Source: Methanothrix sp. (GTDB lineage: Archaea; Halobacteriota; Methanosarcinia; Methanotrichales; Methanotrichaceae). From it: DNA of 64,000 nt. The position numbers and the translations under genes were made by a program. Numbering within the stretch: position 1 is the stretch's first letter; each line of letters opens with the position of its first letter. The notes under the pieces are model-generated. The model saw only the letters and a program-made list of their open reading frames with translations, did not search any database and was not told where the DNA came from. Positions 4,480-55,424 of this stretch are shown here, in pieces. The stretch is taken from the NCBI GenBank assembly GCA_029907715.1, contig JARYLI010000003.1, positions 1 to 64,000 of the forward strand. The letters are read 5' to 3'.

Positions 4480-7145
4480 ACCTCAACGACACCCCCGCTC
4501 AGCACATCATTCTCCGACACCCGCACCTCTCTGGTCATCCCATTCACTGTGAGCCTGTATGCGCCTATCGGAGCGGTGTCAAAGTTCGTGCCCCCGACCA
4601 CCGGACCTTCAGTCGAATACGGAACCACCAGGACAAACTCTCCATTGGAGTCTGTGACGTTTGACTGTCTGTATATGAAGAGCCTCTTCTGGTTCGTCAT
4701 GATCGGGACCTCCACCAGTACCTTTGATCCAGGAGATGCCCTTCCCTTTATAACCGCGCCGGGGACATGCTCGAATGTCTTGACGTACCTGTTTCCTTCG
4801 GCTGTGACCTGTGTTGCGGATTCGTGGACCAGCCTGTAGTGCTGCAGAGCCTCAACGTGCACAGGAGATCTCGCGAAGCTCCTGCTCACAACGCTGACAT
4901 TGTACCCCTCGCTCAGGCTCTCGTTTATGAAGCTCTCCAGCTCATCCTCACTCTTCGGTATAAGTGGGGATTTTGTTATGACTGTGAGAGGTGTGCCATC
5001 CGGCATCGTGACCCTTGTGTATGCTATCGCCACCGGATCCTGCGGCTCGACCTCGCTTCCATCGAAGAAGTGGAGCCTCGCCACCATCGTCCTGAAGTAC
5101 TCCGGCCTCCATACCTGTATCGGGACGAGGCTGTCAGCCTGCGGCTGGTACACAGCCCCTGTGTATCTTGTGAGAGGTATGCTGCTCCACGCGGCTATCG
5201 CATGGAACTTTGTTACGGCCATCTCCACATCTGTCATTATGTACCGCGCATTCATGTAGAGGGATCTGCTCTCGTTCAGGCGCGCGAGCACATCCTCAGC
5301 CTCGCTTTCACTCTCGGCCAGGAAGAACGGAGATGATCCGGGTGTCCCCGTTGTCTTGCTTCCAATTCCCTCCTGGAAGGGGTTGGCGTTCGGATACCTG
5401 TGGCCTATGGTCTCTATGAGATGCCCGTAGTCCCACCATGACATCACACCATATGCTGTCTCAGGGTACTGGAAGTACTGTCCCTCAGGAGGTCGCTCAT
5501 AGACATTATAGATATCAAGCCCGGGATAGGGTGTGTTGTTGCGCATCCACTCGATTGAGCTGACCCAGTCCTGGTTCGGTCCCACAGAGTATCTCGCTAT
5601 TGCATGAGAGCTCAGAACGCTCGGGTATGCCAGTATCATCACTATGAGTATAACTGCAGCCGCTGAGGCCAGTCGCTCGGGCCGGACCTCTCTGGTCAGG
5701 TTCGACGGCGATCTTGCGAGAACATCCTCTATATCCCAGAGGCCCACGCGCGCGTAGGCGAGGGAGGCGAGGTAACCGCAGAGCAGGGCGACGTTGACCG
5801 CGTAGTAGTAGGCGGAGCGGTTTGCAGCCAGCGTTATGATCAGAGTCACAATGCTCCACACCACGACCAGTAGGTACGGAGCTCTGGAGTCCCTGAGGTA
5901 TCTATAAACCAGCAGGCCGAGGCCTATGATGGCAATGTAGAACGGAGAGAGTATGCGTATCACTCCGGGGAAGTTCTCCTCTATACCAGTAACCCCCCGC
6001 CCCACGTCCATGTATATGGGCGAGAGCTCTGCCACTGTTGCAGCGCCACCCGTGCGTGGGAGAAGATACGTCTTGAGACCGTAGACGACCGCGTTGAAGA
6101 GTTCGGGAACTGCCAGGACCACTATTATCAGATCTATAACGATAACAGCTGCAATCGATCCCGGGTACAGTGCCCATGAGAGTCCCCGCCTCGAGACCTC
6201 GCGTGATGCCACAGCAAGCTCCAAACAGAACAGCGATCCCAGGAGCAGCATCGATGGCTGGAAGAGCGAGTACTGAATCAGACTGAATCTGTTGTAGGAG
6301 TGCGCAAAGGGAACCACCATGAGAAAGGCGAAGAAAAGGCCTATCGCACCTATGATTCCCAGGTACTCCCCGCTCCTTCCGCGGTAGTGCTCCACCATGC
6401 TCTGCAAGGCTACCGCGATCAGGAGTATGCCCTCGAACAGGATTCCCATGGACCAGGCATCTATGTAGAGACCGAGGGCGATTCCCGCTAACACCGTCAT
6501 AACGAGCGGGCGCTTGACCGCAGTGAGATCCCGGGGCATGCTGAAGCTGAGGGATCGACCGCTTCTGAATGCCAGAATGAACAGCAGCATCGACAGCGTG
6601 CTCAGAAGTATCTCAGAGGAGTGGTGGTCGGTGAATCCGAGAACGGTTCTGGAGAAGAGCTGTCCTGGAAGCACCACAGAAAGGGCTGCTGCTGTTATTC
6701 CACAACCCCTCCCTCCGATCTCCTTTCCTATGTGGTACACTGGCAGTATCAGGAGCGAGCCCATAATCACAGGCCAGAACGCCCCGACCACATCAACTGT
6801 GTGGAGATCCGATCCACCGAGCCCGACGATCTTTGAGAGCAGGGCCACGCCCCAGCTCAGGAACGGACCGAAGTGGAGTGGCGTGCCATTCGGAAAGTTC
6901 GTGAGCGGATCGAACCAAGGACGTTGCCAGTGGAGGAACGTCGTCTTGGCGAGCATCATGTGATACCATGCGTCGCTCTCACTGCTGAACCTGACCGCAT
7001 CTCCAATGAACACATTCCTGAATGGAACTACAGCTCTTAGGTAGATGGAGAGCAGAAACAGCAGACCAAGTCCCGCATACCAGTATCTCTCGGGCAGGCG
7101 CTTTCTGCTCTGCTTTTTGCTATCTGTGTCCTTCTTCATATCCAT
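4476..7145 (-). CDS. aglB: oligosaccharyltransferase AglB/STT3 (first copy)
   Basis: An 889-residue membrane protein with about 12-13 hydrophobic segments in the first 500 residues and a large outer C-terminal domain. The first DxD-like motif is SESDAWYHM near residue 56. A TDHHSSE metal site follows in the second loop, and the hallmark WWDYGH is near residue 570. AglB transfers the lipid-linked glycan to Asn in NxS/T on the outer face of the membrane, as for S-layer proteins. The C-terminal domain carries a FEHVPGAVIKGRASPGS beta-rich segment that recurs in the second AglB of this window. A TATA-like AACGTTTATC lies at about 7181-7195. Confidence 0.93.
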   Translation of the reverse strand: MDMKKDTDSKKQSRKRLPERYWYAGLGLLFLLSIYLRAVVPFRNVFIGDAVRFSSESDAWYHMMLAKTTFLHWQRPWFDPLTNFPNGTPLHFGPFLSWGVALLSKIVGLGGSDLHTVDVVGAFWPVIMGSLLILPVYHIGKEIGGRGCGITAAALSVVLPGQLFSRTVLGFTDHHSSEILLSTLSMLLFILAFRSGRSLSFSMPRDLTAVKRPLVMTVLAGIALGLYIDAWSMGILFEGILLIAVALQSMVEHYRGRSGEYLGIIGAIGLFFAFLMVVPFAHSYNRFSLIQYSLFQPSMLLLGSLFCLELAVASREVSRRGLSWALYPGSIAAVIVIDLIIVVLAVPELFNAVVYGLKTYLLPRTGGAATVAELSPIYMDVGRGVTGIEENFPGVIRILSPFYIAIIGLGLLVYRYLRDSRAPYLLVVVWSIVTLIITLAANRSAYYYAVNVALLCGYLASLAYARVGLWDIEDVLARSPSNLTREVRPERLASAAAVILIVMILAYPSVLSSHAIARYSVGPNQDWVSSIEWMRNNTPYPGLDIYNVYERPPEGQYFQYPETAYGVMSWWDYGHLIETIGHRYPNANPFQEGIGSKTTGTPGSSPFFLAESESEAEDVLARLNESRSLYMNARYIMTDVEMAVTKFHAIAAWSSIPLTRYTGAVYQPQADSLVPIQVWRPEYFRTMVARLHFFDGSEVEPQDPVAIAYTRVTMPDGTPLTVITKSPLIPKSEDELESFINESLSEGYNVSVVSRSFARSPVHVEALQHYRLVHESATQVTAEGNRYVKTFEHVPGAVIKGRASPGSKVLVEVPIMTNQKRLFIYRQSNVTDSNGEFVLVVPYSTEGPVVGGTNFDTAPIGAYRLTVNGMTREVRVSENDVLSGGVVEV

Positions 7146-7419
7146 GGGTCCCCTGTTTTAGCGATGGAGAGCATATTTCAAGGAGATAAACGTTTTGAGG
7201 CAGAATAACGAGCAGGATGGCGACGATTCATGGGTTTGCTTTTATCCAGTTGATGACAGTTATGGTGTCCGGGAGTACTGACGGAACCGGCACTTTCCGG
7301 CCAAAAACTGACGAGTATCGCGAGATCCACATTGCTGATGCCAGTTTTACTAGCGGACGACCAATCTGATTCGGGTCATCCCATCACCAGCGCGGGAATC
7401 TCACACCACTCATTGCGTT

Positions 7420-8022
7420 CTACTTTCCGAATCTTCTCTCCCTTCTCTGGAAATCCCTTATCGCGCGCAGAAAGTCCAGGCGTCTCAGTGATGCCCAGTC
7501 GACATCTGTGAAGTACAGCTCTGAGTACGCAGCCTGCCATATCATGAAGTCGCTGAGCCTTCTGCCACCAGCCCTTATGACCAGATCCGGCTTCTGCTTG
7601 AACCTGAGGTAACGCTCTATGGTCTCCCTGTCTATCTCATCCGGATCCATCAGACCTGCGGCAACATCCATGAGAACAGACCTTATCGCCTCTGTGACCT
7701 CCTTCTTCCCACCGTAGCCCAGGGAGATTGTGACACTGATCCCGCCCTTTCCGGTCGATGCAGATCTGTCAGCGTCGATGATGATCACGTCCGCGGGGGC
7801 ATTCTTCAGGATGGACTCGAGAGAGGACGCGAGATCCCCGGCGTACTGCCCGATGTGTATCAGCAGGCTATCGATGCCGAGCGATGCGCTCCACTCGACG
7901 AGCTCCCTGAACTTCTCCAGTCCCAGGCCGTCGAACGATGATACCACAAACGCCACACATCCGGGCCTGGGATGGCTCATGACCTCCCTTTCAAGGAGCT
8001 TTTCGTATAATTTGTGTATCAA
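7420..8022 (-). CDS. cis-prenyltransferase (UppS)-like protein lacking the catalytic loop
   Basis: The C-terminal half matches undecaprenyl diphosphate synthase closely: DLVIRAGGRRLSDF, WQAAYSELYFTDV and the last residues RERRFGK. The N-terminal half is different. Where the family has HIAIIMDGNGRWA, the sequence has CVAFVVSSFDGLG and about 20 residues are missing, so the Asp/diphosphate-binding loop and the next helix are lost. The SxENW-like motif is also replaced. The start is TTG 8022, with GGAGAG upstream and LYEKLLEREV matching archaeal UppS N-termini; only 200 residues result against about 250. By analogy with eukaryotic Nus1/NgBR it may be a non-catalytic partner of a full UppS encoded elsewhere. 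Confidence 0.8.
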   Translation of the reverse strand: MIHKLYEKLLEREVMSHPRPGCVAFVVSSFDGLGLEKFRELVEWSASLGIDSLLIHIGQYAGDLASSLESILKNAPADVIIIDADRSASTGKGGISVTISLGYGGKKEVTEAIRSVLMDVAAGLMDPDEIDRETIERYLRFKQKPDLVIRAGGRRLSDFMIWQAAYSELYFTDVDWASLRRLDFLRAIRDFQRRERRFGK

Positions 8023-8040
8023 GTGAATCTCTCCGGGAGC

Positions 8041-8060
8041 ATCGATCGAAACAGATCGAT
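8041..8060. promoter_or_regulatory. inverted repeat between divergent genes
   Basis: ATCGATC-GAAACA-GATCGAT is a perfect 7-bp inverted repeat in the 140-bp gap between the UppS-like gene and the DUF92 gene. It could be an operator for one or both; no regulator is visible nearby. Confidence 0.3.
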
Positions 8061-8162
8061 TCTGAGATGCAGTGCCTCCCTGTAATCCATACTCAGCAAC
8101 TCTTGAAGGCAAAGTATTTTTGGTTGGATGGCGACTGGTTGGCCATGCAGAGAGAGGACGCC

Positions 8163-9335
8163 ATGAGGCTCGCGCTGGGTGCGCTGGCATTCCTGCTCCC
8201 AGTGACAGGCGTCTTCACCGCGATCTTTCTTGCAGTCTGCCTCCTGCACAGGCCCACCAGAATGCTGAGTGCATCGCTTATACTGCTTCTGATACTCAGA
8301 GAGGTGCTGACCTACACGCACCTGGATCTTCCGATGTATGTTGTTGCGATATCGTTCATTCCGCCGACCGTGGCCCACACAGTATCAAAGAGGTTCCAGC
8401 AGCTTGCGGGCAGCTTCATATATATAATGGCCACTGTGGCGATCGGCTATCCGGCTGCGTACCTCTCGGCTCCGTATCTCCTGCAGGAGAAGATACTGTT
8501 TCTGACCATACTCGGAGGGCTGAGCGGTGCATTCCTGCAGCATGTCTCCAGAGAGATGGACTTCACTGTGCCATTTGGCGCTTGCATGGTCATGTGGCTG
8601 TTCAGTTTCGAATACCCCCTTCCGGAGCTCAGCAACATCCTCATGATATACATGTTCGCCGTGCTTCTCGGGGTTGGAGCTTACTGGGCGAAGGCTGCGG
8701 ATGTTGATGCCGTGCTCAGCGAGGTCATAATATGCATACTGGTGGTTCTCTTTGCCGGCCTGAAGTGGTTTCTGCTCCTCCTCACGTTCTACCTGCTCGG
8801 AGGCGCGTTCACGCGCTACGGATATTCGTACAAGCACAGCCTGGGGATCGCCCAGGAGAAGTGCGGCGTCCGAGGATATAAGAACGTGTACAGCAACAGC
8901 TTAGTTCCTCTTGTGGCCGCGCTGTGCTACGGGATATACAGCAACGAGATATTCTTCTATGCCTTCCTCGGCGCTGTGGCAACTGCGAATGGAGATACGC
9001 TGGCCAGCGAGATAGGTGAGACCAGCAGGTCCAGGCCAAGGATGATAACCACGCTGAAGCCCGTGGATCCAGGCGTCGATGGAGGGGTGACACCTCTCGG
9101 GGAGATGGCATCGCTGGCCGGAGCTGCAGTTATAGGGCTGGTCGCGGTTGCAACGGGCATGAGCGGCGCGGATGGTTTCATGATCGCACTTACGAGCGGT
9201 TTTCTGGGATCGAACTTCGACAGCCTGATGGGAGCTGTATTTCAGAGACGGGGTTTGCTCACAAACAACGGCGTCAACCTCGTCGCAACGCTCTTCGGCG
9301 GGATTGTCGGGGCTCTGATGGGGGTGCTCATTTGA
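8163..9335 (+). CDS. DUF92 integral membrane protein (putative polyprenyl/phytyl phosphate kinase family)
   Basis: About 390 residues with roughly ten hydrophobic segments. The second half has the DUF92 hallmarks: GATATANGDTLASEIGE-type (seen as AVATANGDTLASEIGE), PVDPGVDGGVTPLGE, and GSNFDSLMGAVFQRRG near the end. The plant member VTE6 is a phytyl-phosphate kinase. A role in polyprenyl phosphate metabolism would suit the divergent UppS-like gene, but that is inference. ATG 8163 has GAGAGGA just upstream; ATG 8145 would add six residues. The stop overlaps the start of aroE as TTGA, so the two are co-translated. Confidence 0.85.
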   Translation: MRLALGALAFLLPVTGVFTAIFLAVCLLHRPTRMLSASLILLLILREVLTYTHLDLPMYVVAISFIPPTVAHTVSKRFQQLAGSFIYIMATVAIGYPAAYLSAPYLLQEKILFLTILGGLSGAFLQHVSREMDFTVPFGACMVMWLFSFEYPLPELSNILMIYMFAVLLGVGAYWAKAADVDAVLSEVIICILVVLFAGLKWFLLLLTFYLLGGAFTRYGYSYKHSLGIAQEKCGVRGYKNVYSNSLVPLVAALCYGIYSNEIFFYAFLGAVATANGDTLASEIGETSRSRPRMITTLKPVDPGVDGGVTPLGEMASLAGAAVIGLVAVATGMSGADGFMIALTSGFLGSNFDSLMGAVFQRRGLLTNNGVNLVATLFGGIVGALMGVLI

Positions 9336-48448: not shown

Positions 48449-49612
48449 TCAGCCCGGTCTAAGCACATCCTCATAGACCCTCACGGTCGTCTCTGCGATC
48501 TTATCCCAGCTGAAGTCGTGCTCGAGCCTCGCCCGAGCCATGGCAGATAGCTTCATCATCTCCGCAGGGTTGCTGAGGAGACGCTTGATGCACCATGCCA
48601 GGGATTCCGGCTGTATGTATGCCAGCAGCCCGTCCTCGAAGTTTTTAATTATGGTAACCGCTTCTGTGGCAACCACAGGCTTTCCGGCATCCCATGCCTC
48701 CAGCACGACAACACCGAACGGTTCGTTCCTGCTAGGAAGGCATATGATGTCGCATGCGTTCATCAGATCCTCTTTGGTTGAGCTCGGAACGTATCCCAGA
48801 AACCTGCATGCATGCTCGACGCCGAGTTCTCTGGCCAGACGCTCGCACTCCCATTTCATATCACCCTCGCCGATGAAGACGAACTTTGCGTCCCATCTCT
48901 CCCTGAGCACTTCGGGTATCGCTCTGACAAGAAGATCCGGGCCTTTCTGGTAGCACATCCTCCCGCAGAAGAGGATCACAGGCGCAAGCGGATGTATGCC
49001 GTACCTCTCCTTGACCCTGCCGGCATCGAGAGACCTTCTGAGCTTCCCGATCACTATCCCATTTGGGATTATCTCGATCTTCTCCTCCGGTATGGAGTAG
49101 AGCATCATAAGCTCGTTCTTCATCTGCTGTGTTGTCACTATCACCCGCGCGGACTCGTAGCCTCCGAGCCATTCGCGATGGGATATCTCTCTTGATACTG
49201 GACTATGGGCATAACTGTTACCGTTTCTTCCCCACTCGGTGCTGTGGACGGTGAATATCAGCGGAATGGAATGGCTCTTTTTTATTCGGACGATCGCATT
49301 CACAGGATGCCAGTCGTGGCCGTGAATCACATCGAACCTTCCGAAGATCCTCTGGACAGCCTCGAACCGATCGACCATCGCATCGCACATCGTGTCCATC
49401 TGGTGGACTATATCCCCTGTGGGGTCGTGATCCACCCGCTGGTAGTGGACCCCATTGATCTCATCATAGTAATCGAAATCGCCACGCCTTGTGAAGACGT
49501 GCACCTCGTGGCCCATCCTGGCGAGAGCCTCAGACAGCTCAGAGACATGCGGGGCCACGCCGCCGACCTTCACCGAGTAAAGGCTCTCCCAGGAGAACAT
49601 ACCTATACGCAT
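48449..49612 (-). CDS. GT4 family glycosyltransferase
   Basis: A 387-residue GT-B glycosyltransferase. MRIGMFSWESLYSVKVGGVA with a Gly loop starts the acceptor domain and DVIHGHDWHPVNAI is near residue 100. VILFCGRMCYQKGPDLLVRA starts the nucleotide-sugar domain, and PSRNEPFGVVVLEAWDAGKPV holds the conserved EX7E. It resembles archaeal glycogen synthase-like and sucrose-synthase-like GT4 enzymes. AGGTGA precedes ATG 49612, with TATA GAGTTAAATCAC about 35 bases up. It could serve either the glycogen cluster or protein glycan assembly next to the second AglB. Confidence 0.85.
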   Translation of the reverse strand: MRIGMFSWESLYSVKVGGVAPHVSELSEALARMGHEVHVFTRRGDFDYYDEINGVHYQRVDHDPTGDIVHQMDTMCDAMVDRFEAVQRIFGRFDVIHGHDWHPVNAIVRIKKSHSIPLIFTVHSTEWGRNGNSYAHSPVSREISHREWLGGYESARVIVTTQQMKNELMMLYSIPEEKIEIIPNGIVIGKLRRSLDAGRVKERYGIHPLAPVILFCGRMCYQKGPDLLVRAIPEVLRERWDAKFVFIGEGDMKWECERLARELGVEHACRFLGYVPSSTKEDLMNACDIICLPSRNEPFGVVVLEAWDAGKPVVATEAVTIIKNFEDGLLAYIQPESLAWCIKRLLSNPAEMMKLSAMARARLEHDFSWDKIAETTVRVYEDVLRPG

Positions 49613-49867
49613 CAGCTCACCTTTAACAATACATCCTAATAGGTTGATGTGATTTAACTCTTTCACATCTCTCGAAATTCTGTTCTGATTGTACCGCTCA
49701 GCTCACCCTTACAGAATCCGAACCGCTGCAGAAGATTGCAATCCGCCGATACGAAATTCCATCGCATTCGAACTCAGATGACCATCAAGGCCTGAATCTC
49801 CTCGGGATGCAAAGCGGTCGGAGACCGTGACTTCCTCTCCTGAAAGTTTGCGCACTGCCATCCCCTA

Positions 49868-50830
49868 TCACAAGACAGATCTCAGCTCCGAGGCTGCCTG
49901 CTCAGGCGGAACAGGGTTTATGTAAATCCCCGTATTCTTCTCGAATCCTGCGATCCTGGTTATGGCAGGCTGGATCCGGATGTTCAGATGGTAGTTCGAG
50001 CTCATCTGAAACAGCATGTAGTTGTACGGCGGGTCATTCAGAAGCGCAGAAAGCCGGCGGAGCGCCTCCTTCAGAGCCCTGGCAAGGTCTGAACGCATCG
50101 ATTCTTCAATCTCTAAAAGATTGCTGATGTGCCTGAATGGAAGGATCCACATCTCATAGGGTGCCTGGGAGCAGAACGGCGCTATGCAAATCCACTCGCC
50201 CTCCCTGAATATCACCCTCCCAGAGCTCGCCTCCCTCTCAGCGATATTGCAGTATGGACATGCAGGCATCGATGATATCGCGAAGATCTCGCGCATCAGA
50301 AGCGGTGGGATAAGAGGAAGCGCTATCAGCTGAGTGTGCGTGTGGCTCAGAGAGGCACCAGCCTCACGCCCCCAGTTCTTGAATATGGACACGTAAGAGG
50401 ATCCCTGCTCTGTGTGATACCTGTACCGGTCTGCATAGACGCTGATCATTCTGGCAACCATCTCATCATCAAAGTTGGCCGGACTGCTGTCATGATCCGG
50501 CGATTCGATTATGACCTCGTGTCCTCCCCTCGCAGGAATAGCCATCCACTCCGAGGTTGGCGCGTCCGGGCCCGGAACCATCGCAGGGTACATGTTTGGG
50601 ATGCATCTCGCCCACCATCCCCTGATCCGGGTCTCGCCATCCACAAACACGCCGTCGTCTCTGTAGACAGCTACTGCTTTTGGCGTCATCTCCTCGTTCC
50701 CGGGACAGAACGGACACTCCTTCGATGCACGTGCCTCTCTCGGCCGGATGAAATCTGTGGGTCTCCTGGCCCGCTCTTTCGCTATGACACAGTACTCCTC
50801 TAAAAAATAGTGACGCCTCAGCTCCGGTAT
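49868..50830 (-). CDS. galT: galactose-1-phosphate uridylyltransferase family protein, non-canonical start
   Basis: A HIT-superfamily nucleotidylyltransferase of about 320 residues. The N-terminal part has ELRRHYFLEEYCVIAKERAR and the zinc-binding CPFCPGNEE. Then come a second cysteine pair in CPYCNIAERE, SLSHTHTQLIALPLIPP, and the NYHLNIRIQPAITR end. The first ATG in frame (50689) lies after CPFCPGNEE and would remove the zinc and substrate-binding N-terminus. Upstream to the previous stop there is no ATG, GTG or TTG in frame. ATA 50830 lies 7 bases after GGAGG; CTG 50821 is the other candidate. In this cluster it may supply or salvage NDP-glucose. Confidence 0.8.
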   Translation of the reverse strand: MPELRRHYFLEEYCVIAKERARRPTDFIRPREARASKECPFCPGNEEMTPKAVAVYRDDGVFVDGETRIRGWWARCIPNMYPAMVPGPDAPTSEWMAIPARGGHEVIIESPDHDSSPANFDDEMVARMISVYADRYRYHTEQGSSYVSIFKNWGREAGASLSHTHTQLIALPLIPPLLMREIFAISSMPACPYCNIAEREASSGRVIFREGEWICIAPFCSQAPYEMWILPFRHISNLLEIEESMRSDLARALKEALRRLSALLNDPPYNYMLFQMSSNYHLNIRIQPAITRIAGFEKNTGIYINPVPPEQAASELRSVL

Positions 50831-52035
50831 GCGATAACCTCCTCGTAGATCTTCAGAGTATTCTCAGCGGCTTTCCTCCAGGTGAACATCTCCAGGACCC
50901 GCTCCCTTGCATTCCTTCCCCACTCCCTGAGCCGCTCCCGATCTTCGAGAGCGAGATTGACGCCCCATGCGATATCGTTCGGATCTCGAGCATTCACATG
51001 AACGCCTGTCGGCTTCTCAGTCGCAGGGTTCATGACGATCTCCCTCAAACCGCTGACGCCGCTGGCCCCGACGACAGAGGCGCGTTCCATCGATGCTGCC
51101 TCGAGCGCCACAATCCCGAACGGCTCATAGGTGCTGGGGAATATGCAGAGGTCCGCGAGCGCGTAATGATACACCTTCTCCTGTGGGGAGAGGAAGCGCT
51201 CGACGAGAATAACACCGCCGAGCCTCTCAGCCTCTGATCTCACATGATCGATTAGGGATCCGCTGCCCACCACGAGAAGCTTGACGTCAGGATTATTCCT
51301 GCGTATTGCGGGCAGAGCAGCAAGAAGCTGGGAGACGCCCTTGACAGGCTCGAGCCTTCCGAGGAACAGAAGGACTGTATCAGATTCCTTCAGGCCATAA
51401 CTCCTCCTGAGCATCTCGAGCCGCTCTGGCTTCACAGCAGATGGGTCGAAGAGCTTAGTATCCACGCCGTGATAACACACCCTTATCTTATCCGCCGGAA
51501 CCCCGAGACCCTCGAGCTCCCCCTTCATCGCCTCTGAGACCGTGAGCACGAGATCTGCGAGCCTGGCGCCCTTCACCTCTAGAGATACGAGCTGTGGATT
51601 CGGATGCTCGGAGCGCCCGACCTCGGTGCAGTGGACATGGTATATCATTGGCATGATCTGACGCAGCGCCATGCCTGCGGGCAGAGCGAGCCAGTCGTGT
51701 GCAACACAGATGTCAAAAGGACCTGAGTCCCTCAAACGGGCTGCAGCCAGCTGGTTGTAACTAAGGAGGCTGTTCAGGAAATCCAGGCCCGTGCCCCATG
51801 AGAGGGTCTCTTTTGAATAGAAGATCTCCAGAGCATCGCCCAGGGGAAGAGGCATCTCCCTGAACGCCTTCACGCCCTTCTTCGTCTCCCTCCTCTTCAG
51901 ATCCGGCCTGCCCATTGTGAACACAGAGACCTTATGCCCCATCGAGGCGATCTCTCTGGATATCGAATCGACATAAACTCCAAGGCCTCCGTAGACCAGC
52001 GGCGGGTACTCTGTGCTCAGATATGCTATATCCAT
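50818..52035 (-). CDS. GT4/GT5-like glycogen synthase-type glycosyltransferase
   Basis: A 405-residue GT-B enzyme that starts MDIAYLSTEYPPLVYGGLGV, the starch synthase-like catalytic N-terminus with a glycine loop. DICVAHDWLALPAGM, LLFLGRLEPVKGVSQLLAA and FPSTYEPFGIVALEAASM (EX7E) follow. It probably adds glucose from an NDP-sugar to an alpha-glucan. ATG 52035 overlaps the stop of the GT3 gene by one base (TGATG), so translation is coupled; its own stop overlaps the galT N-terminal coding region. Confidence 0.86.
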   Translation of the reverse strand: MDIAYLSTEYPPLVYGGLGVYVDSISREIASMGHKVSVFTMGRPDLKRRETKKGVKAFREMPLPLGDALEIFYSKETLSWGTGLDFLNSLLSYNQLAAARLRDSGPFDICVAHDWLALPAGMALRQIMPMIYHVHCTEVGRSEHPNPQLVSLEVKGARLADLVLTVSEAMKGELEGLGVPADKIRVCYHGVDTKLFDPSAVKPERLEMLRRSYGLKESDTVLLFLGRLEPVKGVSQLLAALPAIRRNNPDVKLLVVGSGSLIDHVRSEAERLGGVILVERFLSPQEKVYHYALADLCIFPSTYEPFGIVALEAASMERASVVGASGVSGLREIVMNPATEKPTGVHVNARDPNDIAWGVNLALEDRERLREWGRNARERVLEMFTWRKAAENTLKIYEEVIAYRS

Positions 52036-53831
52036 CACACCACCAGATTCCTGTAGTACTCCAGAACAGGCTCCTTCCAGTCCATGTACTTTGCAAGCGC
52101 AAACGACTCCTCGCAGAGGAGCCTGTACTCGATCTGATCTGCCACCTGGCTCCAGGTGAAGTAATCGAGCGCGAGGGCGTAATCGAGCACGGTCTCACTG
52201 TACGTCTGCTCTATGTTATCGACCACAACAACCCCACCCATGCCTGTTGTCAGCCTCTTTATCTTCTTCAGAGCATCGCTGAAGCCGCAGGCTCTGCTGA
52301 CTATGCTCGGTGTACCCTCCCTCCCGGCCTCGAGCCCTGTGAGAAGGAAGGGCTCATACTGTGAGGGGAAGATGCCTGCAACACAGCCCGCCATGATCTC
52401 GTCCGCCCTCATGTTCAGCCCGCCGTCATCCGGTCCGACCCATTGAGGGTAGAGGATCGCAGATACTATGCGGTTTCCTGATACGAGCCTCCACGGCTCC
52501 AGGCCCCTCTCCTGTATCATCTTGTAGAGCCTGTGCTCCTCCCACACCAGCACCTCTGGCGTCAGGTTTATCGGGAATCCCTGCGGGAGCCTGTCCTTCT
52601 GCTTCGGGCCGTGCGCCGCTATGAGAAAGCAGGCGACCCTGAGCTTCTCGGCAAACCTCTGCTTCATCGCTCTGTGTTTGAGCAGATGGTCCTGAAGGAC
52701 CAGGGCATCAAGGAGCTGCGGATATCCCTTGTTCTCTATCTCTATCCTTGATATGGTGAATATGGGTATTATGTTCTCAGGATCGATCTTCTCCCCGCCG
52801 TAGATGTTGTAGAGTGTGTCTGAGAGGAACTTCTGTATCCTAGCCCTGCAGCGGTTCTTCTTCTCCCAGTCTATGTGGTCCTCCTCCACCTCTATCCCGT
52901 TTCTTATGACGATGCCCTTCAGATCGTGGAAGAGCATCGCCTCCTTCATCGTGGAGTCGCCGACGAAGGTCACGATATCCGCATACCTCGCCAGGCCCTC
53001 CAGTGCCGCCATCGAGACAGGGGTGTTCGGTGGCCAGTGTTTCTCGTTCCTGGCGATCATCTCCAGGGACCTGTACCCTGCTGCCCTCCCGGGAACCGTG
53101 GCATGAAGCGTCGCCATCGTGCGGACGGGCTGGCCGAGAGCCTTCAGACGCGCAACCGCATAGAAGACTCCGAACTCGTGGCAGTGGAGCGATATTCTTA
53201 TCTTCGGGAGAACCGAGCGCGCGAACTCCGACACCGCCTTATCAGCGTATTTCTCTGCAGGCTCCTCGGCCATCGACTTCAGCACACGCACGAGCTCTGA
53301 GATCGCATAGGAGAGGCATAGGTAGTGATTGTACTCGGGAGCGTTGCTGAGGCGCTCGTACTTGAGCGAGTCCAGCCCCACAAGCCTCCATGCCTCCTCC
53401 TTTATCGCGTTCGTGAGCGTCATCTCCCTGGAGTCCCTTCGAACTATGCAGCTGTCATAGTAATGCGTATCGAAGAGTATGTAGCCAACAGGAACATCAT
53501 GATAAACCGCCTGGCACGATACTGATTTTATCCCAAGGGATTCGAGCCGCTCAAGGGCTGTTTTGATCTCGTCGCCCATGCTCAGAGGCTCGAGGCCGGA
53601 TATGTCCGTAACACGCATCTTTCCCCTGTTCCAGTCTGCGCCAGCTGTGGGGAAGTACGGGCCAGCGACGAGGATCCTGATATCGTTCTCGATATCGCCG
53701 CTGCTGATCAGCTTTGCAAGGGTCCTGGCCTCTGCATCTATCACATTCCATATGCCGCCCATCTTGTTTGAGACTGGGCCCGCCTCCTCTCCTGCGATCA
53801 CTATCCATCTCTGTATCATGATCTCCCTCAT
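52035..53831 (-). CDS. glycogen synthase, GT3 (eukaryotic-type) family
   Basis: A 598-residue GT3-like glycogen synthase. The N-terminal GPVSNKMGGIWNVI sugar-nucleotide loop is followed by LHCHEFGVFYAVARL and ATLHATVPGRAAGY. TISRIEIENKGYPQLLDAL and FPSQYEPFLLTGLEAGREGTPS are diagnostic of GT3 rather than of GlgA (GT5). It elongates alpha-1,4-glucan from UDP-glucose in the family. The start overlaps the KaiC-like gene as ATGA, and the next GT4 gene overlaps its stop, which makes a tight four-gene unit. Confidence 0.88.
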   Translation of the reverse strand: MREIMIQRWIVIAGEEAGPVSNKMGGIWNVIDAEARTLAKLISSGDIENDIRILVAGPYFPTAGADWNRGKMRVTDISGLEPLSMGDEIKTALERLESLGIKSVSCQAVYHDVPVGYILFDTHYYDSCIVRRDSREMTLTNAIKEEAWRLVGLDSLKYERLSNAPEYNHYLCLSYAISELVRVLKSMAEEPAEKYADKAVSEFARSVLPKIRISLHCHEFGVFYAVARLKALGQPVRTMATLHATVPGRAAGYRSLEMIARNEKHWPPNTPVSMAALEGLARYADIVTFVGDSTMKEAMLFHDLKGIVIRNGIEVEEDHIDWEKKNRCRARIQKFLSDTLYNIYGGEKIDPENIIPIFTISRIEIENKGYPQLLDALVLQDHLLKHRAMKQRFAEKLRVACFLIAAHGPKQKDRLPQGFPINLTPEVLVWEEHRLYKMIQERGLEPWRLVSGNRIVSAILYPQWVGPDDGGLNMRADEIMAGCVAGIFPSQYEPFLLTGLEAGREGTPSIVSRACGFSDALKKIKRLTTGMGGVVVVDNIEQTYSETVLDYALALDYFTWSQVADQIEYRLLCEESFALAKYMDWKEPVLEYYRNLVV

Positions 53832-54574
53832 GGATAGGGCGAGAGGCCCGAGACCGCCATCCCATCATCCGATATGTCCAGAACCCTTATGCTGTTCGAT
53901 ATCTTCGAGCCCCGCATCTTCATGACATAAATGGAGCGCACAAGTGCGTTGCCGATTCTGTCCCTTCTGAGCATGGTGCACGAATCAGCGCCGTACTCCA
54001 GTATCTGGTTCATGCCGAACGCGGTGCCAATCGTTATGACGGACGTCGCCTTTGTGGCCCTCAGACTCGAGAAGAGATCGTCTGCCAGCGACCTTATCTT
54101 GAATGGCGCCTGAACCGCGTAGAAGAACGCCATCAGATCATCGACGAAAACCCTCTGTGGGTTCTCCTCCTTCACCTTCCGCTCTACCAGCTTTCTGAAG
54201 TTGATGAGAAAATCCACTGGATCCAGATCTATGCTCTTCTGAAGCCTGAGCACCGGATCTGTGACGTCGACTATGACAAGCTTTTTCTCCTCTTCCAGCT
54301 TCCACAGATCCCAGTTGAAGGAGGAGTACATCTCCCTCTTGAGCGACTCTGCGCTCTCGGAGGGCGTTATTATCATCCCCTTGTCGCCCATCCTGATGCC
54401 CTCATAAATGAACTGGGTGGCAAATACCGTCTTTCCCGTGCCGGAGCCGCCGGTGACGGTATTGACTGTACCCCTGTTGAAGCCGCCATTTACAAGCTCG
54501 TCAAAGCCTGGTATGCCGGACCTGACTTTGGTGTACTTCTTGGCGGCAACCGCCTCAACATCATGCGTATCCAC
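53828..54574 (-). CDS. single-domain KaiC-like ATPase
   Basis: A 248-residue RecA-fold KaiC-domain protein. RSGIPGFDELVNGGFNRGTV is the family N-terminus, Walker A GGSGTGKT is near residue 42, the catalytic Glu region is TPSESAESLKREM, and Walker B is RVFVDDLMAFF near residue 144. It is a single domain, unlike two-domain cyanobacterial KaiC. Archaeal members often act in signalling through autophosphorylation. Being first in a translationally coupled glycogen synthase operon, it may sense ATP or energy state and control polyglucose synthesis. GTG 54574, 7 bases after GGAGG, is preferred over GTG 54580. Confidence 0.85.
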   Translation of the reverse strand: MDTHDVEAVAAKKYTKVRSGIPGFDELVNGGFNRGTVNTVTGGSGTGKTVFATQFIYEGIRMGDKGMIITPSESAESLKREMYSSFNWDLWKLEEEKKLVIVDVTDPVLRLQKSIDLDPVDFLINFRKLVERKVKEENPQRVFVDDLMAFFYAVQAPFKIRSLADDLFSSLRATKATSVITIGTAFGMNQILEYGADSCTMLRRDRIGNALVRSIYVMKMRGSKISNSIRVLDISDDGMAVSGLSPYP

Positions 54575-54625
54575 AGACACTCCTCCTCTACATCCTCAGG
54601 GTCTGTAGTACTTAGTTTTTCCGAT

Positions 54626-54777: not shown

Positions 54778-54812
54778 TTTCCGATGCAATAACAGCGTGC
54801 GGATTTATATAC

Positions 54813-55424
54813 TCAACCTGGCTCGCCTCTGCAGAGCGGGACACGGTGAGCCCCCTCCCTATCGTGAACTATGCACACGCCTGTGGGGCTCTCCGGTCGG
54901 TCCGCAGCCGCAAATCCGGAGAATCTCGATCTGGCCTCCCGCTCCTCCCGTATCTCTGAGATGAGACGTCTCTTCAGCTCCTGAGCGATATGCAGCGCCT
55001 CTTCATCGTCCATCTCCATCCCCAGACCCCTGCACTCTGACACACAGAGCTCATCGCCGTCAAGATAGAATGGATATGTCCTGCATATATCAGGGCGCGC
55101 CAGGTATATACTGCAGGATCCCGACGCAGCATCGTAGTAAGCGCAGCCATTTTCACTGCGCCTGAGCATCCACTCGAGCGTGTGGAAGTTTCCTTCCGCG
55201 TCCCAGACTCCGGCCTTCGGCGGCTCGACCACCTCCAGCCACGGCTGGTCTGTGTGAGATATGATCCGCCTCACTTCAGAGGGGAAGAGCAGGACCTCGG
55301 CATCCGGGCCCCTGCAGCAGTCGCCGCAGCGCTGACACCTGAACCCCACCGCCTTTATCCTCTCGGCCAGCGCCTCAACCGATATCCTGCCTGCAATCTC
55401 GAGATCGATAATCTCATTAATCAT
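54813..55424 (-). CDS. YkgJ-family CxxCxxCC metal-binding protein
   Basis: A 203-residue member of the YkgJ family. The cluster FRCQRCGDCCRG is near residue 28 and further cysteines follow in GCAYYDAASGSCSIYLARPDICRTYP. The family is thought to bind zinc or iron-sulfur, with no proven reaction. The C-terminal 50 residues, rich in Arg and Glu, lie outside the domain. Its start overlaps the guaA stop as ATGA, so the two are translated together. Confidence 0.86.
   Translation of the reverse strand: MINEIIDLEIAGRISVEALAERIKAVGFRCQRCGDCCRGPDAEVLLFPSEVRRIISHTDQPWLEVVEPPKAGVWDAEGNFHTLEWMLRRSENGCAYYDAASGSCSIYLARPDICRTYPFYLDGDELCVSECRGLGMEMDDEEALHIAQELKRRLISEIREEREARSRFSGFAAADRPESPTGVCIVHDREGAHRVPLCRGEPG

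Follow-up and report, generated by a model that had tools for sequence, protein, structure and literature searches.

Why a KaiC-like ATPase should be encoded at the head of a set of glycogen genes is the question raised by a 64,000-nucleotide stretch of contig JARYLI010000003.1 of Methanothrix sp. (assembly GCA_029907715.1; hereinafter, the window). To our knowledge, the regulation of archaeal glycogen is largely unknown, and for the majority of KaiC-like ATPases in archaea no partner has been identified. An earlier reading, made from the sequence alone, described this locus as a translationally coupled operon of KaiC-like, GT3, GT4/5 and galT genes and proposed that the ATPase is an energy-sensing control protein for the storage polymer. 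The four genes, their order on the minus strand (kaiC-like, GT3, GT4, GalT-like) and their families are borne out by the open reading frames and profile matches (Table 1).

Table 1. Positions of the genes and promoter-like elements of the kaiC-GT3 locus in the window
Feature	Position	Strand	Start codon and basis of assignment
Single-domain KaiC-like ATPase	53828..54574	minus	GTG start 54574, ORF opens at GTG 54580; PF06745, alignment to solved KaiC, ortholog alignments
GT3-family glycogen synthase	52035..53819	minus	Conserved ATG 53819; PF05693, yeast and human glycogen synthase matches
GT4-family glucosyltransferase, GlgA/GlgM-like	50818..52035	minus	ATG 52035 or GTG 52038; PF00534/PF13439
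GalT / ADP-glucose-phosphorylase-like nucleotidyltransferase	49868..50830	minus	Probable non-AUG start ATA 50830; 1z84 match, start-codon comparison
Second GT4 glycosyltransferase, probable separate transcription unit	48449..49612	minus	Own conserved upstream block
Promoter-like block GTGAAAGAGTTAAATCAC of the second GT4	49649..49666	minus	
Promoter-like element ATCGGAAAAACTAAGTACT, family consensus ACCGAAAGRMCTAATTACC	54607..54625	minus	Aligned 5' regions and match counts

The genes lie close together, but the strict translational coupling by overlap that was originally proposed is unsupported for KaiC and GT3. The 4-base overlap attributed to this pair probably stems from an over-long GT3 open reading frame: the close relative L009 reads CCCTGA and does not have the ATG at 53831 that produces it, whereas the GT3 start M-I-[QE]-R-W is conserved in relatives, so that GT3 likely begins 8 bases past the KaiC stop. 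In other species, the gap ranges from about 1 to 55 bases. The GT3 protein of the window is 95% identical to that of L009 (a Methanothrix sp. MAG) and 97% identical to that of L008 (a Euryarchaeota MAG). The overlap of GT3 and the first GT4 stands, at 1 base (TGATG) or 4 bases (GTGATG), and the 13-base overlap of GT4 and galT stands if galT starts at the ATA codon but not otherwise. This start call is non-canonical yet plausible given the GGAGGT located 6 bases 5' of the ATA in the window. Species sharing the overlap have ATA, ATC or ATT at this position, and those in which it is missing have ATG; a non-AUG galT start within the 13-base overlap (50818-50830, minus strand) appears to be lineage-wide. 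The second GT4, left out of the earlier reading, begins about 250 bases beyond the GalT-like gene, probably at ATG 49612, and is likely a separate unit because it has its own conserved upstream block. On the other side of the operon, the neighbor at 54813-55424 encodes a CxxCxxCC (PF03692) protein; of the relatives surveyed, L008 alone has such a gene immediately ahead of kaiC. No Rfam family was found in the region.

The KaiC-like protein consists of one domain (248-250 amino acids) and belongs to the KaiC-domain family, matching PF06745 over profile positions 1-226 of 231 (E=5.6e-47; 160 bits against a cut-off of 26.6). The nearest archaeal solved structures, Pyrococcus PH0186 and PH0284 (2zts and 2dr3), are alike in size and domain, and Foldseek recovers KaiC folds from the AlphaFold models, although these models, derived from shallow alignments, are poor (mean pLDDT 62 and 66) and serve to draw nothing finer than the fold. 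The cyanobacterial clock is linked to glycogen, and this link, along with the distant homology to KaiC, is what would speak for the control of glycogen by a circadian device or timer in Methanothrix. The parallel is weak, however: the ATPase domain is shared with cyanobacterial KaiC and the ATP-binding residues align, but the Methanotrichaceae protein has a single domain rather than two, with no autokinase half, and scores 85.6 bits with the circadian KaiC model TIGR02655, far below the cut-off of 546, which makes such a device highly improbable. Neither is the protein an ArlH, as it reaches 37.2 bits with the ArlH equivalog NF052589, against a cut-off of 215.

The active site of cyanobacterial KaiC uses E77 for water activation and E78 for Mg coordination, while the phosphates are held by K52, K224 and R226 (PMC2777353). 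The aligned Methanotrichaceae sequences conserve K48, E73, D145, K219 and R221, and accordingly contain the residues expected of an ATPase of this family, namely the Walker A lysine, the Walker B aspartate and the K-x-R finger. Unlike cyanobacterial KaiC, the protein has Ser or Asn in place of the second glutamate in the EE pair and an additional aspartate after Walker B; the second glutamate is already lost in the sister lineage of L168 and L170. The assignment of E73 as the first glutamate, obtained from the ungapped alignment through L168 and L170, is the least certain one, given that the profile alignment to KaiC would put S72 in this position. The profile alignment, by which the first glutamate is lost, had led to a 'dead ATPase' interpretation of the TPSES motif; it was dropped because L168 and L170 (TSEASESLKREM and TSESAESLKREM, respectively) show that the first glutamate is kept and the second lost. 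Because Walker A and B, the K-x-R finger and the first glutamate are all kept, the protein likely binds ATP at subunit interfaces, whereas hydrolysis is uncertain. In one genome (G014, L160, approximately 5088-5708), kaiC contains an in-frame TGA that is possibly a frameshift or a sequencing error.

The GT3 protein is recognized by PF05693 (65 bits; cut-off 27) and keeps the E-x7-E motif, with EPFLLTGLE aligned with EPWGYTPAE. The HAT..GR and R-x5-K active-site segments are likewise common to this protein, yeast Gsy2 and human muscle GT3, but the similarity to both is distant (about 50-65 bits). In yeast, an arginine helix of GT3 serves glucose-6-phosphate control. When Gsy2 (a wild-type sequence assembled from two mutant entries) is compared with the window GT3, this helix, RRQRINQRNRTER, aligns to VADQIEYRLLCEE, with one of the six arginines kept; in this respect the protein differs from the regulated GT3 of eukaryotic type, which has an arginine cluster for its control by glucose-6-phosphate and phosphorylation, and it shows no sign of the glucose-6-phosphate switch. 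The first GT4 is matched best by PF00534/PF13439 and more weakly by the GT5 model PF08323; its nearest solved structures are archaeal GlgA and maltose-1-phosphate synthase. The 'galT' label holds at the level of the family (PF01087), but the protein is closer to Arabidopsis ADP-glucose phosphorylase (At5g18200, 1z84; for the function, see PMC11066809), which it matches over the full length (E=1.8e-46) with the SHxHxQ motif in common, than to E. coli GalT (62 bits). With the galactose-1-phosphate uridylyltransferase model TIGR00209, it scores 60.9 bits, below the equivalog cut-off of 102. No archaeon among 427 proteomes has the complete classical five-enzyme glycogen pathway (PMC6355812).

Contrary to the initial impression, the co-occurrence of GT3 with a GT4/5 synthase is not unusual in this class: in most Methanosarcinia, a GT4 gene is clustered with those for GT3 and the GalT-like protein, and throughout most Methanosarcinaceae this grouping is found without KaiC. 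In distant lineages of the phylum, GT3-like synthases are encoded near GH57 or GT4 genes (L148, L150, L151, L152 and L153), in one case (L152) adjoining a sugar nucleotidyltransferase. Those of L151-L153 score about 270-400 bits with the GT3 profile, far above the window GT3, suggesting transfer.

The pairing of kaiC with GT3 proved to be conserved, albeit within one family only. Among 50 Methanotrichaceae genomes surveyed with the KaiC-like and GT3 profiles, 46 contain both genes (the same 46 by either profile), and in 45 of these, from 10 genera, the two are adjacent on one strand; outside the family, adjacency is found in 1 of the 51 genomes with both genes. The one Methanotrichaceae exception (G028) has kaiC and GT3 on different contigs; the pair was separated by a break or an insertion, since kaiC ends 184 bases from the contig end and unrelated sequence lies in front of GT3. 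Both genes are missing in the remaining four genomes, two of them from one genus (93-95% complete) and two incomplete (58% and 86%), a joint loss that could reflect a single deletion or MAG incompleteness. A contig with a broken GT3 inverted beside kaiC (L078) looks like an assembly chimera. The genes upstream of kaiC differ between genera: a GH57 amylase and a glycogen debranching enzyme are found there in several, and replication factor C or other genes elsewhere. The GH57 and debranching enzyme genes are also found downstream in some genomes, and in the genome studied here they lie at a distance of about 80 kb on the contig that holds the window. Because the upstream neighbors vary in this way, the linkage of kaiC and GT3 is not mere regional synteny. 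KaiC is also the best conserved protein of the operon, with about 69-81% identity across genera, compared with 66-73% for GT3 and 54-67% for GT4 and GalT.

The conservation extends to a short element in front of the operon. The sequence 5' of kaiC is unalignable even within the genus save for the last 60 or so bases, and yet the box ACCGAAAGRMCTAATTACC recurs across the family, 50-90 bases 5' of the kaiC start codon. Matches to this box in the 50 genomes are almost confined to this position: just upstream of kaiC lie all 17 of those with one mismatch or none and 22 of the 24 with two or fewer. When up to three mismatches are allowed, the version of the box from the same genus matches the Methanothrix genome once. 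Outside the family, the box was not found ahead of KaiC or GT3 genes, where the best scores were at chance level. In the layout of the element, GAAAG precedes an AT-rich box that lies a short way 5' of a plausible transcription start, which suggests that it is probably a BRE with a box at the TATA position, that is, the unusually well conserved core promoter of the operon itself, where a bound regulator is possible. The conservation and near-uniqueness of an element directly upstream of kaiC, together with the precedent of the KaiC-like GvpD that regulates gas-vesicle genes, could be taken to mean that the KaiC-like protein acts, by itself or together with a partner that binds DNA, as a regulator of its own promoter and hence of the operon. 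This reading appears unlikely, considering that the element resembles a core promoter, that the block upstream of the second GT4 has a similar layout, and that a profile search finds no DNA-binding domain in the KaiC-like protein. Another box, TATATAAA (around 54805-54812), was rejected as a promoter as it is not retained in close relatives. In genus g9 (L022, L024, L017, L029, L030 and similar), the kaiC leader is longer and includes, about 40-70 bases past the promoter box and between the promoter and the ribosome-binding site, a short inverted repeat: GCGCTGC-AAATC-GCAGCGC or a variant of it, with wobble pairs in some cases. Given the adjacency in 45 of 46 genomes and a promoter element conserved despite the shuffled upstream genes, the pairing is under selection, which supports a functional tie of the KaiC-like protein to the glycogen genes within Methanotrichaceae.

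This tie does not extend to methanogens at large. A comparison of the KaiC and GT3 lists for another 150 genomes of the class gives 51 with both genes, 33 with GT3 only (most of these from one genus cluster, g17/g18), 30 with the KaiC ortholog only and 36 with neither. In the sole genome where the two genes are neighbors (G051, L181 at 6204-8906), they are divergent, with a debranching enzyme gene downstream, and could represent an independent association or a relic. All this excludes a general KaiC-glycogen system of methanogens. The other orthologs sit alone, near cobalamin, HMG-CoA reductase, RIO kinase or DUF5591/TrmB genes. As the orthologs are nearly always unlinked outside the family and each gene often occurs alone, KaiC is not an obligate GT3 subunit, and its ancestral job, judging from its occurrence without GT3, was something else. 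The stand-alone orthologs of Methanosarcinaceae and their relatives, present even in genomes without GT3, are what would be expected if the KaiC-like protein had kept its ancestral role, for example, as a signaling hub, and merely shared a promoter with the enzymes, being co-expressed without touching them because the same growth state calls for both. Such an arrangement is a serious alternative but a doubtful one: the pair persists through the shuffling of its neighborhood, and the Methanotrichaceae KaiC proteins form a clade (100/100) with a long stem (1.12 changes per column) and 19 fixed differences from other orthologs, which suggests a changed role. The sister lineage of this clade is not GT3-linked, and the simplest history is that a KaiC-like gene, originally stand-alone, joined the glycogen operon through a single recruitment when the ancestor of Methanotrichaceae arose or before the family diversified.

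The reading favored here, if tentatively, is that the KaiC-family ATPase was recruited to the head of the operon as an ATP-dependent switch for the synthesis of the storage polymer. The closest precedent is ArlH (FlaH), also a single-domain archaeal KaiC-family ATP-binding protein encoded beside an enzyme, ArlI, with which it interacts and which it modulates (PMC8978795), an example of a KaiC-like protein serving as ATP-gated modulator of the product of a neighboring gene; the partner of the Methanotrichaceae protein would instead be a glycosyltransferase. Starting from the operon link itself, the KaiC-like protein and GT3 would be produced from the same message, presumably a single transcript, under the dedicated promoter. 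If the protein works as ArlH does on ArlI, an ATP-loaded ring, putatively a hexamer, would then bind either GT3 alone or the whole GT3/GT4/nucleotidyltransferase group, and the bound ring would raise or gate the enzyme activity so that glycogen is made when ATP is plentiful, with this direction of control being part of the conjecture. A switch acting on GT3 or its neighbors is placed first, short of being probable in its own right, ahead of contact-free co-expression and then of transcriptional control. The more specific version, in which the ring senses ATP, is dedicated to the allosteric regulation of GT3 in place of the glucose-6-phosphate/phosphorylation switch of the eukaryotic enzymes, and arose once in Methanotrichaceae, is conceivable but rather unlikely.

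The KaiC-like protein itself belongs to a known family. A literature search found no paper on an archaeal pairing of KaiC with glycogen synthase, and the conserved operon with GT3 within a single family is, as far as the literature was searched, undescribed, although an earlier mention in surveys of KaiC neighborhoods is possible. Methanotrichaceae are major acetate-using methanogens, and the family-wide, promoter-linked KaiC-GT3 operon provides one KaiC-like protein with a concrete candidate target that is directly assayable; the linkage suggests that the KaiC-like protein may control carbohydrate storage in Methanotrichaceae.
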